From contig CANRCD010000002.1 in the NCBI GenBank assembly GCA_947629005.1, positions 1 to 64,000 of the forward strand: 64,000 nt of DNA, in the 5' to 3' direction. Positions 46,450 through 53,932 of the stretch are shown piece after piece. Within the stretch, counting starts at the first letter, position 1, and the number at the start of each line of letters is the position of its first letter. The notes beneath the pieces were generated by a model. It was not told the DNA's origin, made no database searches, and saw nothing but the letters and a program-made list of their open reading frames with translations. Source of the DNA: an uncultured Clostridia bacterium (GTDB lineage Bacteria; Bacillota; Clostridia; UMGS1883). Made by a program: the position numbers and the translations under genes.

Positions 46450-47005
46450 TAGGAATAAGGAAAAAGCAAAAATAGGCCGTAAAACTCGCTCTGTTATTTG
46501 GGCGCATGGGGGTTGGCCGAAAAAATCGCGCAGAACGGACGGCATCGGAACAGGCTTCGCATCGCGGCTTAGGTTTTTCAAAACCAAAACCAATCGGGCT
46601 CGCTCCGCTGCTCCTCATTTTCCCACAAATACGGCTCCGCCGTCTTTGCGGGGGCCCGTTATTAGCTCGCGTAGGCTGCGTAACGCCCCACATAAACAAA
46701 GAACCCCTCCGCTCGCAAAAGGTTGGTAGCAAGTGGAGGCGTGATGAGGGCGGTTTATCCGCCCGAATAGCCGAAGCGCGGCGTGACCTTTTGCGAAAAA
46801 GGAGGGGCAAGCCCTCGAGCGACGATATTTTTTCGTAAGAAAAAACGTCAGAGCAAAGACGAGCTTTGCCCCGACGCCGCCGAGGGTGATTTTCGTTTGT
46901 AGTTCAAGGCATAAAAATGAGAAAATTCGCTCGTAAGGGCGAATTTTCTCATTAAAATTATTTTAATTACTAAATCTATAATGCTCAAACTTGCCTTAAA
47001 TAATC
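46450..47005 (-). repeat. Hairpin-rich interspersed repeat, copy 1
   Basis: Fills the junction between two convergent genes. Read on the minus strand it matches copy 2 (50580-51070) along nearly its full length, with one extra segment of about 75 nt near 46570-46645. Its glgP-proximal end is a 15-bp hairpin (46916-46930 with 46939-46953, AATGAGAAAATTCGC) followed by ATTTTTA, so it probably terminates glgP. Further stems include GGGGCAAAGC with GGGCTTGCCCC, CCTTTTTCGCAAAAGG and GGGCGGATAAACCGCCC. Open frames in it differ between copies, so it is not coding. Confidence 0.85.
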
Positions 47006-47010
47006 GGCCC

Positions 47011-49473
47011 CTATTTCTCGACCGTGGGGAGGTGCCAAATCTTGTCGTTATATTCCTCGATGGTTCTGTCGCTGGAGAAAAAGCCGCTGTAGGCCGTGTT
47101 AAGAATGGCCTTGCGCGTCCACAGCGCCTTGTCACGGTACTGGGATTCGGCCTTGCGGTGAATCTCACAGTAAGCCTCGAAGTCGCGTACAACCATATAG
47201 TTGTCGGCCGAGCCGTGTTCGCCGAAGATGAGCGACTGGTAGAGGTCGTAGTAGAGGTGGTGGTCGGTGGGATTGATAGAGCCGTCGATGAGCATATCGA
47301 GTATTTTTCTTATCTCAGGGGATGAGGCGTAGATGTCCTGACTGGAGCGGCTCTCGAAGCGCAGGGCCTTGTTCACCTCAGCGGTCGTCATGCCGAAGAT
47401 AAAGATATTGTCGTCGCCCACGCAGCGCAGCATTTCGACGTTCGCGCCGTCAAGCGTGCCTATGGTGAGGGCGCCGTTGGCCATGAACTTCATGTTGCCG
47501 GTGCCGCTGGCCTCCTTGCCGGCGGTGGATATCTGCTCGGATATCTCAGCTGCGGGAATGATGGACTGAGCCAGCGTTACGCCGTAGTTTTCGATGAATA
47601 CCACCTTTATCTTACCGCCGATATCGGGGTCGTTGTTGACGAGCTTTGCAACATCGTTTATCAGGCGGATAATGAGCTTTGCCCGCTTGTACCCGGGTGA
47701 GGCCTTTGCGCCAAAGATAAAGGTGTGGGGAAGCATATCGAAGCTTGGGTCGGTTTTAAGACGGTTATAAAGATAGAGCACGTGCAGGATGTTCAAAAGC
47801 TGACGCTTGTACTCATGCAGGCGCTTCACCTGAACGTCAAAAATGGACTCGGGGTCTACCTCTATGCCGTTGTGCTCCTTGATGTATGCTGCAAGCTCCT
47901 TTTTCTTTTCAAGCTTAACCGCACGGAACTGCTCTTGGAAGTCGGGGTCGTCGGCAAACTTGGCAAGCTCCTCAAGTTTCGAGAAGTCCTTCGTCCAGGC
48001 GTCGCCGATTTTGGAGGTGATAAGGCGGCTGAGCTCGGGGTTAGCCAGCATAAGCCAGCGGCGGAAGGTAATGCCGTTGGTTATGGCCACAAACTTTTCC
48101 GGGAACAAATTGTAATAATCGCGGAACACGTCCTCCTTGAGTATCTGCGTGTGCAGCTCGCTTACGCCGTTGACCTTGTAGCACGAGGCAAGGCACATAT
48201 TCGCCATGGAAACATAGCCGTGGGCCACGATAGCCATGTAGTTTATCTTGCCCCAGTCCTCGCCGTAGATGCTGAGCAGGTGGTTCTGAAGGCGGCGGTT
48301 CATTTCCTCCACGATCATCCATATACGGGGAAGCAGGCGCTGGAACATCTCCACGGGCCATTTTTCAAGAGCTTCGGCCATAACGGTGTGGTTCGTATAG
48401 GCAAACACCTTGGTGGTGATGGCCCAAGCCTCGTCCCAGCCAAGCCCCTCGTCGTCCATCAGAATTCGCATGAGCTCGGGAATGGCGATAGCGGGGTGGG
48501 TGTCGTTGATGTGTATGGTGATGAAATCGGCAAGTTTATGCAGTCCCTCGCCGGCGTGGTGGCGCTTGAAGCGGGAAATTATCCACTGGAGCGTACACGA
48601 CACGAAGAAATACTGCTGTCTGAGGCGCAGGGCCTTGCCCTCCTGATGGTTGTCCTCGGGGTAGAGCACCTTGGAAAGCGCCTCGGCCAAAGCCTTCTCC
48701 TCTACGGCCTTAACGTAGTCGCCGCCGCCGAAGTAGGCCAGATTGAGGTCGTTCTTCGCGCGGGAGGACCAAAGGCGCAGGGTATTGACGAGGTTCGCGT
48801 TATAGCCTGCGATAGGTACGTCGTAGGGAACGCCCAGCACGTCGGTGGTGTCCTCGTAACTGACCTTGAGGCCGCTTTCGGTGAACTCGGTCTTTACATG
48901 ACCGCCGAAGTGGACGACCTGCTGCTCCTCGGGGCGGGGTATCTCCCACACGGTGCCGTCCTCAAGCCAGTTGTCGGGAGTCTCCACCTGTTGGCCGTCG
49001 ATGATTTTCTGGCGGAACAGGCCGTATTCGTAACGTATGGAGCAGCCGAAAGCGGGCATATTGAGCGCGGCCAGCGAATCCATAAAGCAGGCGGCGAGGC
49101 GGCCAAGACCGCCGTTGCCAAGGCCGGCGTCGCTCTCCTGCGAGGCGATTTCGGCAAGAGAGCAGCCCATGCTTTGAAGCACGGCCTCGTAATCTTCAGT
49201 AAGGCCTACGTTAAGCAGGTTGTTGCCAAGGGAACGCCCCATGAGAAATTCAAACGAAAGATAGAACAGCTCCTTGCGATGAGCGGTTCTCTGCGCGCGG
49301 CGGTATTCCGTCCAGCGCTTCATTATGGTATCGCGCACGGTGAGAGCCGTCGCTTTATATATGTGCGACTTGGTTGCGTCCTCGATGGTGCGGCCGTAGT
49401 GGCGGCTGAGCTTGCCGAGGATTTCTTCCTTAAGCTCCTGCTGCGCGGGAGTGAGAGCCTTTGTCTTGGACAA
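47011..49473 (-). CDS. glgP: Glycogen phosphorylase
   Basis: An 820-residue GT35 enzyme that releases glucose 1-phosphate from glycogen with pyridoxal phosphate. The N-terminal part has the substrate-site phrase DAGLGNGGLGRLAACFMDSL. The PLP lysine (about K662) lies in GTGNMKFMANGALTIGTLDG. Phosphate-site residues are in FGAKASPGYKRAKLIIRLIN. The start is a TTG (TTG-TCC-AAG) with GAAAGGA 8 nt upstream, the only sensible start. It is monocistronic: own promoter, with the copy-1 repeat hairpin as terminator. It pairs functionally with glgA at 27171-28622. Confidence 0.96.
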   Translation of the reverse strand: MSKTKALTPAQQELKEEILGKLSRHYGRTIEDATKSHIYKATALTVRDTIMKRWTEYRRAQRTAHRKELFYLSFEFLMGRSLGNNLLNVGLTEDYEAVLQSMGCSLAEIASQESDAGLGNGGLGRLAACFMDSLAALNMPAFGCSIRYEYGLFRQKIIDGQQVETPDNWLEDGTVWEIPRPEEQQVVHFGGHVKTEFTESGLKVSYEDTTDVLGVPYDVPIAGYNANLVNTLRLWSSRAKNDLNLAYFGGGDYVKAVEEKALAEALSKVLYPEDNHQEGKALRLRQQYFFVSCTLQWIISRFKRHHAGEGLHKLADFITIHINDTHPAIAIPELMRILMDDEGLGWDEAWAITTKVFAYTNHTVMAEALEKWPVEMFQRLLPRIWMIVEEMNRRLQNHLLSIYGEDWGKINYMAIVAHGYVSMANMCLASCYKVNGVSELHTQILKEDVFRDYYNLFPEKFVAITNGITFRRWLMLANPELSRLITSKIGDAWTKDFSKLEELAKFADDPDFQEQFRAVKLEKKKELAAYIKEHNGIEVDPESIFDVQVKRLHEYKRQLLNILHVLYLYNRLKTDPSFDMLPHTFIFGAKASPGYKRAKLIIRLINDVAKLVNNDPDIGGKIKVVFIENYGVTLAQSIIPAAEISEQISTAGKEASGTGNMKFMANGALTIGTLDGANVEMLRCVGDDNIFIFGMTTAEVNKALRFESRSSQDIYASSPEIRKILDMLIDGSINPTDHHLYYDLYQSLIFGEHGSADNYMVVRDFEAYCEIHRKAESQYRDKALWTRKAILNTAYSGFFSSDRTIEEYNDKIWHLPTVEK

Positions 49474-49517
49474 GTTGATCTTCCTTTCATAAATGAGTAG
49501 GATTCATAACCTAAGAT

Positions 49518-49546
49518 ATTATACTATAAAACCGTTTGACCGTCAA
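49518..49546 (-). promoter_or_regulatory. Promoter of glgP
   Basis: Minus strand: -35 TTGACG (49541-49546), 17-nt spacer, perfect TATAAT (49518-49523). Confidence 0.8.
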
Positions 49547-49622
49547 GAAATTTTATGCAGAATTTACCTAAAAATACGTTAAATAAATTGTAGGTTTTTG
49601 CCAAAAAAATTTCAAAAACCTG

Positions 49623-49651
49623 TTGCAAAGACTGCGGAAATGTGCTATACT
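49623..49651 (+). promoter_or_regulatory. Promoter of the FMN riboswitch-ribU transcript
   Basis: -35 TTGCAA (49623-49628), 17-nt spacer, -10 TATACT (49646-49651). Transcription would start just before the riboswitch. Confidence 0.75.
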
Positions 49652-49663
49652 AATATAAATGAA

Positions 49664-49800
49664 TATCTTCGGGGCGGGGTGAGATTCCCCACCGGCGGTA
49701 CAGTCCGCGAACCCGGGTTCCCCGGGCCGATTTGGTGAAATTCCAAAACCGACGGTAACGGCTTTTGGCCGGAGTCCGGATGAGAGAAGTGAGGTGTTTT
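49664..49800 (+). ncRNA. FMN riboswitch (RFN element)
   Basis: All conserved blocks of the RFN element are present in order: TTCGGGGCGGGGTGAGATTC, CCCACCGGCGGTA, AGTCCGCGA, CCGATTTGGTGAAATTCCAAA-type, ACCGACGGTAACGGC-type, and GTCCGGATGAGAGAAG. It binds flavin mononucleotide and switches off the riboflavin transporter gene when FMN is plentiful. Confidence 0.97.
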
Positions 49801-49817
49801 TTGCGTGTGACTCCTGT

Positions 49818-49856
49818 TAGGCTCCGATTTTTCGGGGCTGTTTTATTTTATCCTCT
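49818..49856 (+). terminator. Expression-platform terminator of the FMN riboswitch
   Basis: GGCTCCGA pairs with TCGGGGCT through two G-T wobbles, around TTT, followed by GTTTTATTTT. The antiterminator would involve the CTCCTGTTAG just upstream. Confidence 0.75.
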
Positions 49857-49902
49857 ATTATTATTTTAACCCGTATTATTTTTAGGAAAGGAAGCAAATT
49901 TT

Positions 49903-50550
49903 ATGAGTGACAAAACAAAAAAAATAACCACCCTCGCCATGCTCTGCGCAATGGCCTTTGCCGCAGTGGCGCTTATCCGCATACCCGTGACGGCGTTTTT
50001 GAAGTACGAACCGAAGGACGTTATCATCGCCATCGGCGGTATGCTGTTCGGGCCGCTGGCTTCGGTGGCCGTTTCGGTGGTAGTGTCGCTGGTCGAGATG
50101 GTGACTATCAGCGATACGGGTTTTTACGGCCTTATTATGAACATAATCTCCAGCGTGTCCTTTGCGGCCGTGGCTTCCCTCGTCTACAGCCGCCGCCGCA
50201 CCGTTGGCGGGGCGGTCGCCGGTCTTTTGTCCGGCGTCGCGGTTATGACGCCCGTCATGCTGCTGTGGAATTACATCGTCACCCCACTTTATATGGGCTA
50301 TCCCCGCGAGGCCGTGGCCGCTATGCTGGTTCCGGTGTTCCTGCCGTTCAATCTGCTTAAGGGTGGGCTCAACGCCGCTATCACCATGCTGCTGTATAAG
50401 CCCGTTGCAACGGCGCTGCGCAAGGCGCATCTCGTTCCCAAGAGAGAAGGTTCCTCGGGCGGAGGCTTTAGATTCGGAATAACCGTGGTTTCGGCCATTG
50501 CGCTTGTTGGACTGATAGCCTGTCTGGCGCTGCTCAGGGCACATCAATAA
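49903..50550 (+). CDS. ribU: Riboflavin ECF transporter S component (RibU-like)
   Basis: A 215-residue membrane protein with about six spans (MLCAMAFAAVALI; MLFGPLASVAVSVVVSLVEM; LIMNIISSVSFAAVASLVY). The S-component family phrase FLKYEPKDVIIAIGGMLFGP matches RibU. The FMN riboswitch upstream makes riboflavin the near-certain substrate. It needs the shared energy-coupling module (EcfA/A'/T), which is not encoded here. GAAAGGA lies 11 nt before the ATG. Copy 2 of the repeat starts just after the gene, and its hairpin probably terminates the transcript. Confidence 0.95.
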   Translation: MSDKTKKITTLAMLCAMAFAAVALIRIPVTAFLKYEPKDVIIAIGGMLFGPLASVAVSVVVSLVEMVTISDTGFYGLIMNIISSVSFAAVASLVYSRRRTVGGAVAGLLSGVAVMTPVMLLWNYIVTPLYMGYPREAVAAMLVPVFLPFNLLKGGLNAAITMLLYKPVATALRKAHLVPKREGSSGGGFRFGITVVSAIALVGLIACLALLRAHQ

Positions 50551-50579
50551 GCAAAAAACGAAAAGGCCGTAAAAAATAC

Positions 50580-51070
50580 GTGCAGGCGTTAAAGGGCCGA
50601 AAGCCTTTATTTAAGGCAAATTTAAGCATTATTTGAGCATTAAATGATTGGTAGTTAAAATAATTAATGAGAAAATTCGCCCTTACGAGCGAATTTTCTC
50701 ATTTTTATGCCCTTGAACTACGGACGCAAATCACCCTCGCCGGCATCGGGGCAAAGCCCGTCTTTGCTCTGACGTTTTTTCTTACGAAAAAATGTCGTCG
50801 CTCGAGGGCTTGCCCCTCCTTTTTCGCAAAAGGTCACGCCGCGCTTCGGCTATTCGGGCGGATAAACCGCCCTCATCACTCCTCCACTTGCTACCAATCT
50901 TTTGCGAGCGGGGGTTCTTTGTTTATGTGGGGCGTTGCGCCTCCTGCGAGAGCTGATAACAGGGTCCCGCAAAGACGGCGAAGCCTGCTCCGACGCCGTC
51001 CGTTCTGCGCAATTTTTTTGGACGGCCCCGTGCCCCCCGAGTTACAGAGCGAGGTTTTTTACAGCCTCTT
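50580..51070 (+). repeat. Hairpin-rich interspersed repeat, copy 2 (inverted to copy 1)
   Basis: Fills the junction between ribU and the convergent lipoprotein gene and reaches the latter's stop codon. Same order of hairpins as copy 1: AATGAGAAAATTCGC stem (50666-50680 with 50689-50703), GGGGCAAAGCCC with GGGCTTGCCCC, GACGTTTTTTC-TTAC-GAAAAAATGTC, CCTTTTTCGCAAAAGG and GGGCGGATAAACCGCCC. It lacks the roughly 75-nt segment found in copy 1. In both copies the first hairpin faces the 3' end of the gene it follows. Confidence 0.85.
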
Positions 51071-51071
51071 T

Positions 51072-51644
51072 CTACTTCTCTTCCTCAGCTGAGGGTTCAC
51101 TTGCCGGTTCAGCTGCCTCGCCTGCGGCGTCCTCGGCCGGACTGCCGCCGGCAAGCTGCTCCTCCATCTCCTCCTGAGTGACGGGATCGTCCTCAACCCT
51201 CACGCGGGATACCTCGGTGGCAAATTTTTCACCCTTGGGGCCGTCCTGCACGGTCATCAGCACCGCGTCGCCGGGCTTGACAAAGTCCACGCAGTTCAGA
51301 CCGTTGCCGTCGAGAATGTAGGTGGTTATCTTATTGTAGGTGTTTACCGTAATGTCCTTAAGGCTTATGGCAAGCACCCAGCCGGCCACGCGGCCGCCGT
51401 CAAGATAGTCTCCCTTCATGAATATCTCGTGGTATTCTCCGAGCTCGTCCTCGCTCGGCAGTTCGTCGCCTACGCTCGCCTCGGTGACGGGGCCGTGCTC
51501 CTCCACGCTGCCGTCCGGTATAAGCTCGGTATTTTCCTTGTTTTCGTATGCCAGCTCGTTTTTCGGCAGCGCGGGCTTGTCCTCGCCGCAGCCGAAAAGA
51601 ACAGCGGCAAGCAGCAGCGCAATTAAAAGCGAAAATTTTTTCAA
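51072..51644 (-). CDS. Small lipoprotein of unknown function
   Basis: A 190-residue protein with a lipoprotein signal: KKFSLLIALLLAAVLFGC (lipobox LFGC). The middle (about 70-150: VAGWVLAISLKDITVNTYNK; PGDAVLMTVQDGPKGEKFAT) looks like a small beta-barrel. The C-terminus is Glu/Ala-rich low complexity (SPAEDAAGEAAEPASEPSAE). I do not recognise a family. The start is a TTG at 51644, 7 nt after GGGAGG; the longer frame upstream lacks a site. It has its own promoter, and its 3' end meets repeat copy 2. Confidence 0.78.
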   Translation of the reverse strand: MKKFSLLIALLLAAVLFGCGEDKPALPKNELAYENKENTELIPDGSVEEHGPVTEASVGDELPSEDELGEYHEIFMKGDYLDGGRVAGWVLAISLKDITVNTYNKITTYILDGNGLNCVDFVKPGDAVLMTVQDGPKGEKFATEVSRVRVEDDPVTQEEMEEQLAGGSPAEDAAGEAAEPASEPSAEEEK

Positions 51645-51665
51645 CTGAAAACCTCCCTTTTTTAT

Positions 51666-51694
51666 ATCATACCACAATGAATAATTTTTTTCAA
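51666..51694 (-). promoter_or_regulatory. Promoter of the lipoprotein gene
   Basis: Minus strand: -35 TTGAAA (51689-51694), 17-nt spacer, -10 TATGAT (51666-51671). Confidence 0.65.
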
Positions 51695-52330: not shown

Positions 52331-52363
52331 TACCCCTCAGGACAAAGGTTCATAAACATGCAG

Positions 52364-52388
52364 AAATCCGCTCTTTCGAGCGGATTTT
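52364..52388. terminator. Bidirectional hairpin between convergent genes
   Basis: 10-bp stem AAATCCGCTC (52364-52373) with 52378-52387 around TTTC, T-rich on both sides. It could end both the glycine-zipper gene and the AGCS symporter gene. Confidence 0.6.
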
Positions 52389-52492
52389 CCACATTAATTC
52401 ATCAATTCATAATTTTTTATATAGAGCTTGACACTTATACAAATCCATTAAGCCCTTGAACGGTCTGCGCGTATTTTTTTACGGCCCCTTTG

Positions 52493-53932
52493 CTATTGCA
52501 GCAGCTTTCCTTCCTTACGCCGTTGAAGATAGCTCTTTATCTCCTGCATGACCTGCCCGTGCAGCAAAATTACCGCGAACAGGTTGGGAATAGCCATAAG
52601 GCCGTTGAAGGTATCGGAAATATTCCACACCAAATCAAGCTGGCTGAGGCAGCCGACCATTATCATAAGAATGAAAATCACCTTATATACGGGCACTGCC
52701 TTTATTCCGAACACGTACTGAATACCGCGCTGACCGTAATACGACCAGCCGAGTATCGTGGAGAAGGCGAACAGCGCAAGGCTTATGCTGATGAATATCG
52801 CGCCAATCTGCCCGAAGGTCTGCGAAAAGGCGGCGGAGGTGAGCGGAGCGCCGGAAAGCGTGGCGCCGGTTTTATCGAGCAGCAGCTCGCCGGCCTTGTT
52901 GGCGGGAGCGCCAAGCTCGGGATTGTATACGGTGGTTAGTATGGAAAGGGCGGTGATGGTGCAGATAACAATGGTGTCGGCAAACACCTCGAAGATGCCC
53001 CACATACCTTGAACTACGGGCTCCTTAACGTCGGAGGCGGAGTGAACCATTACCGAGGAGCCGAGACCGGCCTCGTTACTGAACACGCCGCGGGCTATGC
53101 CAAAGCGCATGGCCTGCGCCACCGTAAAGCCGAGGAAGCCACCGCCCGCGGCCTTAATATTGAAGGCGCCGCGGAAAATCATGGCGAAAGCTGCGGGAAC
53201 GGCCTTGATGTTGACAAGGATTATCGCAATGCCGCCGACTATGTAGAAAATAGCCATAAAGGGAACGATTTTCTCCGTGACCTGAGCTATTCTCTTGATA
53301 CCGCCGATGATAACGAGGGCGGCGAACGTCATTATAACTATCGCCACGGCAAACTTGGGAACGCCGAAGGTGTCGTGCACGGTGGTGGCTATGGAGTTGC
53401 CTTGACTCATATTGCCTATACCGAAGGAAGCAAGTATGCAGAAGCAGGAGAATATCATCGCCAGCCACTTCATGTTGAGGCCGCGGTCCATGTAAATCAT
53501 AGCGCCGCCTACCCAGTCGCCCTTTTCGTCCTTATAGCGGTACTTAATGCCGAGTACGTTCTCGGTAAAGTTCGTCATCATGCCGAGGAAGGCGCTGAGC
53601 CACATCCAGAAGATAGCGCCGGGGCCGCCGCTGACGATAGCCGTGGCTACGCCGGCGATATTGCCTGTGCCCACCGTGGCCGCAAGCGCCGTGGAAAGGG
53701 CCTGAAACTGACTGATAGCCCTTTTGTCGTCTGTTTTGCGGACGCTCTTTTTCTTAAAAATCGCGAGAATGGTTTCGTCAAACCAAAGCTTGAACTTGGA
53801 GACCTGAAACACGCCGCTGCGCACCGTGCACAGCAGGCCTACCAGCAGGAATACCACCAGCATTACCGGCCCCCAGACAAAGTTGTTTACCGTGGAGTTG
53901 ACCTTTTCAACAATCCCGACAAATTTGTCCAT
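52493..53932 (-). CDS. Alanine/glycine:cation symporter (AGCS family)
   Basis: A 479-residue membrane transporter with about ten to eleven spans that takes up alanine or glycine with Na+ or H+. Family phrases: ALSTALAATVGTGNIAGVAT, IFWMWLSAFLGMMTNFTENV, VFSNEAGLGSSVMVHSASDV and GWSYYGQRGIQYVFG. The full length fits the family. A good promoter (53973-54001) and a GAGGAGG site precede the ATG. It is a single-gene unit. Confidence 0.95.
   Translation of the reverse strand: MDKFVGIVEKVNSTVNNFVWGPVMLVVFLLVGLLCTVRSGVFQVSKFKLWFDETILAIFKKKSVRKTDDKRAISQFQALSTALAATVGTGNIAGVATAIVSGGPGAIFWMWLSAFLGMMTNFTENVLGIKYRYKDEKGDWVGGAMIYMDRGLNMKWLAMIFSCFCILASFGIGNMSQGNSIATTVHDTFGVPKFAVAIVIMTFAALVIIGGIKRIAQVTEKIVPFMAIFYIVGGIAIILVNIKAVPAAFAMIFRGAFNIKAAGGGFLGFTVAQAMRFGIARGVFSNEAGLGSSVMVHSASDVKEPVVQGMWGIFEVFADTIVICTITALSILTTVYNPELGAPANKAGELLLDKTGATLSGAPLTSAAFSQTFGQIGAIFISISLALFAFSTILGWSYYGQRGIQYVFGIKAVPVYKVIFILMIMVGCLSQLDLVWNISDTFNGLMAIPNLFAVILLHGQVMQEIKSYLQRRKEGKLLQ

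Follow-up and report, generated by a model that had tools for sequence, protein, structure and literature searches.

Folded, mobile and apparently undescribed elements at gene 3' ends in Clostridia

What are the two similar, oppositely oriented repeats that bracket glgP and ribU in the genome of an uncultured Clostridia bacterium? The window analysed here is a 64,000-nucleotide stretch of that genome (GenBank GCA_947629005.1, contig CANRCD010000002.1), and the original prediction, made from its letters, had taken the pair for a structured RNA or a mobile 3'-end element that supplies terminators and makes the 3.6-kb block between its copies invertible. Most of that reading has held, as the repeats are structured, mobile, tied to gene 3' ends and equipped with terminator-like hairpins. 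The invertible block has not: no sign of inversion was found, and G004, a genome without the element behind ribU, keeps the gene order and orientation of the glgP-ribU block.

The repeats of the window and their basic unit

The predicted inverted arms align over almost the entire length of the two repeats, and both repeats lie between convergent genes, as expected (Table 1). Copy 1 starts with GGGGCCG at 47010, immediately 3' of the glgP stop codon (47013-47011), and lacks part of the 5' strands (most of P1 and P2 in the fold described below). Copy 2 fills the space from 13 nt past the ribU stop codon (50548-50550) to 4 nt short of the stop codon of the convergent gene at 51072-51677. A partial third copy begins 4 nt past the stop codon of a sodium:alanine symporter gene (52493-53932, minus strand). 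Folding of the glgP and ribU copies gave z values of -5.5 and -5.9 against dinucleotide shuffles, none of 100 shuffles being equally good. The FMN riboswitch predicted ahead of ribU was recognised as a match to RF00050 (91.4 bits) at 49661-49795, upstream of the ECF riboflavin transporter gene. Spurious open reading frames can be read through the element, for example at 50667-51092.

Table 1. Coordinates of the repeats, their parts and the tRNA-associated relatives of module B.
Feature	Position	Strand	Remark
Inverted arm	46706-46909/50711-50914		204 nt, 95% complementary
Inverted arm	46633-46707/50911-50985		87% complementary
Inverted arm	46481-46560/50978-51057		80% complementary
Inverted arm	46908-46955/50664-50711		48 nt, 100% complementary
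Copy 1 (glgP copy)	46474-47010	minus	long mosaic element
P3 hairpin, copy 1	46916-46953	minus	terminator-like
Inserted module B, copy 1	46712-46877	minus	borders approximate, mapped from copy 2
Internal P1 3' strand, copy 1	46509-46537	minus	GTTCTGCGCGATTTTTTCGGCCAACCCC
Terminal repeat at 3' end, copy 1	46474-46484	minus	TTTTACGGCCT
Copy 2 (ribU copy)	50564-51067	plus	long mosaic element
P3 hairpin, copy 2	50666-50703	plus	terminator-like
P2 3' strand and P4 5' strand, copy 2	50709-50735	plus	conserved core stretch
Inserted module B, copy 2	50743-50908	plus	borders approximate
Second insert, copy 2	50961-50999	plus	breaks P4 3' strand; borders approximate
Internal P1 3' strand, copy 2	51002-51029	plus	GTTCTGCGCAATTTTTTTGGACGGCCCC
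Terminal repeat at 3' end, copy 2	51055-51067	plus	TTTTTTACAGCCT
Copy 3	52345-52488	minus	partial: P1 and P2 5' strands and P3, without P4-P6
Module B, tRNA-associated	L007 1501-1591; L025, L038, L040, L042, L043, L045, L050

When the ribU copy is used as a query its matches split into modules, the window copies exceed most others in length, and mosaic and truncated copies occur in the family. The basic unit was derived from 69 short forms, nearly all from the window's genus; a typical member has about 310 nt (units of about 240-330 nt). Its fold consists of a closing stem P1, a stem P2 bearing the terminator-like hairpin P3, and the arm P4, from which hairpins P5 and P6 branch off. In P1 the 5' end of the element (GGGGCYGTAAAAAA..GCGCAGA) pairs with an internal strand (TCTGCACGATTTTTTC..CGGCCCC), and in P2 TTCAAGGGC is paired with GCCCTTGAA. 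P3 is a variable hairpin within P2 that is followed by T, and P4 (ACGAAAATCA paired with TGATTTTCGT) encloses P5 (CTCGGCGTAC..GTACGCC) and P6. Genus copies carry a tail after the fold, ending in TTTTTTACAGCCCC, and thus have the terminal inverted repeats GGGGCYGTAAAAAA/TTTTTTACAGCCCC; in several other families it is stem P1 that forms the outer ends.

In both window copies, module B replaces the P5 hairpin. Outside the element, module B is a separate repeat family, and relatives of it lie directly 3' of tRNA genes (Glu, Pro, Met, Asn, Ala, Val) in several genomes. A C-G to T-G change that had been cited as a sign of a preserved stem does exist, but it lies inside the inserted module B, outside the conserved fold, and as a one-sided change it says little by itself. 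Because of module B and the second insert, the arm models give the window copies 20.9 bits at most, which marks them as worn members of the family. They are old, insert-bearing and probably decayed, and today they may act at most as a terminator and spacer between convergent genes.

Distribution of the family and conservation of its fold

Further copies are numerous, with 61 matches to the ribU copy in its own 2.04-Mb genome and 19 to 30 in each of seven genomes of the same genus. The core motif is also present in numerous named records from uncultured Clostridia and in one Oscillospiraceae genome. Class-wide covariance-model searches, run with strict filters and only nine scored candidates per genome, detected the element in 54 of 391 genomes and 30 of 223 genera with the arm model R1, and in 56 of 391 genomes, 33 of 223 genera and 13 families with the broader model R2. 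Because these searches score so few candidates, copy numbers per genome were taken from a separate count, and they reach 66. In a phylum sample of 398 genomes the sole match was the window's own genome. Several contigs of the window's assembly (G000) start or end in repeats (C1:1-89, C12:13-443, C11:60787, C16:33917), so that the repeats probably break the assembly and the copy numbers are probably lower bounds.

It could be argued that the pair is nothing more than the outcome of a recent event within this genome, a local duplication or a gene conversion, involving two 3' regions that are otherwise unrelated. The window copies do have their best matches in each other and in a single additional copy, and since the corresponding glgP site of G004 is occupied by a short form, the window's genome has probably undergone an exchange of the element body there. 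However, such an event explains the similarity of the pair and not the family, which has dozens of further genus copies and a fold found in 33 genera. As a full explanation it is refuted by the 61 matches in the same genome and the 33 genera, and we give it hardly any credence.

Searches of Rfam 15 gave no match at the gathering score or at E values up to 10, and a search of phages and plasmids gave no match to the element. No description was found in the literature, where subscription papers were thinly covered, so an earlier description is possible. The family of folded, mobile, non-coding 3'-end elements of Clostridia is apparently undescribed so far.

Compensatory changes, as anticipated for a structured element, were found in many copies and across families. 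Among the short forms, 29 pairs show a two-sided change at least once, with 95% of cells paired, and across families two-sided changes occur in 28 of 32 pairs. In the cross-family alignment, which was fitted to the structure and contains a few opposite-strand matches of the same copies, the covariation score was 0.330, compared with 0.109 ± 0.005 after shuffling and at most 0.076 when the structure was slid. For this reason, two further pairing tests relied on sequence that the model does not cover. The P2 5' strand (32 distinct sequences) pairs with its partner at 8.98 of 10 bases against 6.76 in shuffles (maximum 7.34), and duplexes of the outer P1 strands average -13.6 against -8.8 ± 0.4 kcal/mol, the shuffles behind these and the covariation values being ones that ignore the relatedness of copies. 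At the 5' end of genus copies, base 5 varies in step with the internal P1 strand (83 of 86 copies) and not with the terminal repeat. A strand test found 101 G-U pairs and 73 A-C mismatches; from these uncalibrated counts no strand-specific RNA signature could be found.

Gene ends, terminators and empty sites

Gene calls in the genus were based on codon usage, and 45 full copies have a called end on both sides. These comprise 19 convergent, 14 sense tandem, 11 antisense tandem and 1 divergent contexts, so that 44 of 45 abut a gene 3' end, and the element is mostly separated from the stop codon by 0-17 nt. In distant genomes the context was read from the longest open frame and is hence noisier; the 33 clear cases there comprise 17 convergent, 10 sense, 4 antisense and 2 divergent contexts, with 31 at a gene 3' end. 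The predicted tie to gene ends is thus found in the genus and in distant genomes. Moreover, the stop codon of the sense gene anchors the 5' end in 27 of the 33 distant cases, mostly 0-20 nt upstream of it, and the 3' end is more remote. Judged by eye from their C-termini, the genes that several distant copies follow resemble fusA, groEL, rpoC and glgP. Two distant copies (L270, L278) adjoin the RNase P RNA gene. At one convergent gene pair in different species (L092, L215, L179) the element has opposite orientations, which could reflect either independent insertions or a flip in place.

Hairpins with the T-run of an intrinsic terminator accompany the element, in line with its predicted supply of terminators. 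P3 is terminator-like, with a stable hairpin and then a T-run, in 97 of 116 genus copies. In families such as those of G078 and G023, 19 of 55 cases, compared with 2 of 54 control windows, have a terminator-like hairpin behind the fold, often GGGGCTGTAA..TTACAGCCCC-TTTT. Several other families have an ordinary terminator hairpin after the unit, which places the element between stop codon and terminator. Head-to-tail tandems were seen at L358 985-1600 (three units), L360 and L274 1501-1806, and G023 also has units in tandem; in tandems a terminator hairpin comes after the last unit, and its 5' arm is similar to the unit's own 5' end.

Occupied and empty orthologous sites support the predicted mobility. 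Behind glgP the element is present in G000, G001, G002 and G004 and absent in G003, G006 and G007, where the empty site has simple hairpins (G006, G007) or a fragment of module B (G003). Behind ribU the site is empty in G004 and G005. At L191(+) the element is flanked by AAAAG and CTTTT, while L146 and L206 read AAAAG-hairpin-CTTTT at this site, and simple hairpins also mark the empty sites in the pairs L230 and L252, L208 and L249, and L161 and L247. The T-tract of the native terminator is retained at L191(-) and the native terminator itself 3' of the element at L034, and the pair L177 and L255 shows no clear terminator. Replacement of the native terminator by the element, whether at insertion or through later loss, thus appears frequent yet not the rule, as judged from few occupied and empty pairs. 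Furthermore, seven copies in G078 show 93-98% identity across 189-237 nt, and no flank similarity was seen among the five whose flanks are long enough. The element spreads, since empty orthologous sites mostly have simple terminators and these near-identical copies sit in unrelated flanks.

A mobilising partner was sought among known enzymes. Neither the presence of Y1 transposases nor that of reverse transcriptases tracks the element, and a universal partner of either kind was rejected. Six genomes (G001, G006, G013, G023, G025, G026) have the element and no Y1 match, and the Y1 match of G000 is a 39-position fragment. There was no coding sequence between element halves and no transposase with these ends in the 1.67 Mb examined. 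Altogether, no mobilising enzyme was found among Y1 transposases and reverse transcriptases or in these 1.67 Mb. Target duplications of 6 bases occur in 3 of 59 copies, against 0.17 expected, and 53 copies are without any duplication; duplication as a rule was rejected. Treated as inverted repeats, as for a palindromic target, the flanks gave a 12-nt identity that was not above shuffles and slightly longer exact runs.

These observations bear on the possibility of an ordinary MITE moved by a standard transposase of the host, for which only terminal repeats and palindromes would matter and gene-end placement would be due to purifying selection against other insertions. Such an origin would account for the terminal repeats GGGGCYGTAAAAAA/TTTTTTACAGCCCC of the genus, the few 6-base duplications and the mosaic and truncated copies. 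It fits poorly with a 5' end that covaries with an internal strand rather than the terminal repeat, with compensatory changes in deep interior stems across families, with the very tight distance to the stop codon and with the failure to find a transposase for these ends in 1.67 Mb, and we regard it as improbable.

Interpretation and comparison with known systems

The existence of the family, its fold and covariation, its position, the occupied and empty sites and the near-identical copies in unrelated flanks were observed directly. They are best explained by a mobile, structured 3'-end element family that supplies or accompanies termination and whose fold is read by a factor in trans, which we consider moderately probable. 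For the mechanism of movement and the molecular role we infer the following. The element may spread by copying to gene ends and could be tolerated there because it supplies or accompanies termination, often replacing the native terminator. Its fold would be kept because it is recognised, as folded RNA or as single-stranded DNA, and the likeliest reader would be a trans-acting mobilising or processing factor. Against this explanation stand the lack of a mobilising enzyme in our searches, the 3 duplications in 59 copies, the nearly equal numbers of sense and antisense tandem copies in the genus (14 to 11), the small excess of G-U pairs over A-C mismatches (101 to 73), and the poor scores of the window copies.

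A host-serving structured 3'-UTR RNA could produce some of the same features. It would act on its mRNA (stability, processing or regulated termination) or as a released RNA, and would have been multiplied by domestication or duplication instead of selfish mobility. The conservation of fold and junction sequences in 13 families, the anchoring of the 5' end at the sense-gene stop codon in 27 of 33 distant cases and the location between stop codon and terminator in distant genomes all agree with such a role. However, a given gene can carry the element in one species and lack it in another, a single family spans copy numbers of 0 to 66, genus copies also lie antisense to their neighbour and the G-U excess is weak, so this explanation seems unlikely, although less so than an ordinary MITE.

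The mobile-element explanation also has a more ambitious form, in which the family forms a novel class of large structured RNAs, or of folded single-stranded DNAs, that are themselves mobile, target gene ends just past stop codons, displace native terminators, have been kept by compensatory evolution across many Clostridia families and are moved by machinery that reads the fold. This is offered tentatively, as a possibility that could well prove wrong. Bacterial interspersed repeats are usually short, confined to a single lineage and regarded as decayed transposons. In the element, numerous copies and turnover go together with a branched fold that compensatory changes have preserved in 13 families, and its place is at the ends of transcription. 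If its action were confirmed, it would explain many unannotated 3' regions of gut Clostridia, provide a natural case of exchangeable terminators and hint at machinery that recognises the fold. The element matters for annotation too, given the spurious reading frames that run through it.

Among known systems, MITEs are likewise short, non-coding, palindromic and high in copy number, with terminal inverted repeats that the element has in the genus. The element differs from them in a fold kept by compensatory changes across families, in the rarity of target duplications and in a partner transposase that was not found. Similarly, REP and BIME sequences, which are associated with RAYT (Y1) transposases, are extragenic, palindromic and present in many copies, and their folded structure is thought to be recognised. 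The element shares these traits but is about ten times longer, and element-bearing genomes exist without a match to the Y1 (TnpA-REP) transposase of that system.

Closest in action is SPRITE of mitis-group streptococci, an 18-bp duplex followed by a long U-rich tract, which is interspersed, terminator-like, enriched near gene 3' ends and perhaps co-opted as a terminator (PMC3049150). Both are interspersed and terminator-like and lie near gene 3' ends, but the element is a multi-branched fold of about 310 nt in many families and not an 18-bp duplex. Closest in build is BOX of S. pneumoniae, whose boxA-boxB-boxC organisation is modular, with a variable inner module, and is folded if transcribed (PMC3049150). 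Neither SPRITE nor BOX is described with the fold of the element (PMC3049150). Compared by description only, BOX and the element are both modular interspersed repeats with a variable inner module, but they differ in sequence and organisms, and in the element the inserts are optional, the short form is the conserved fold and the placement is at gene 3' ends.
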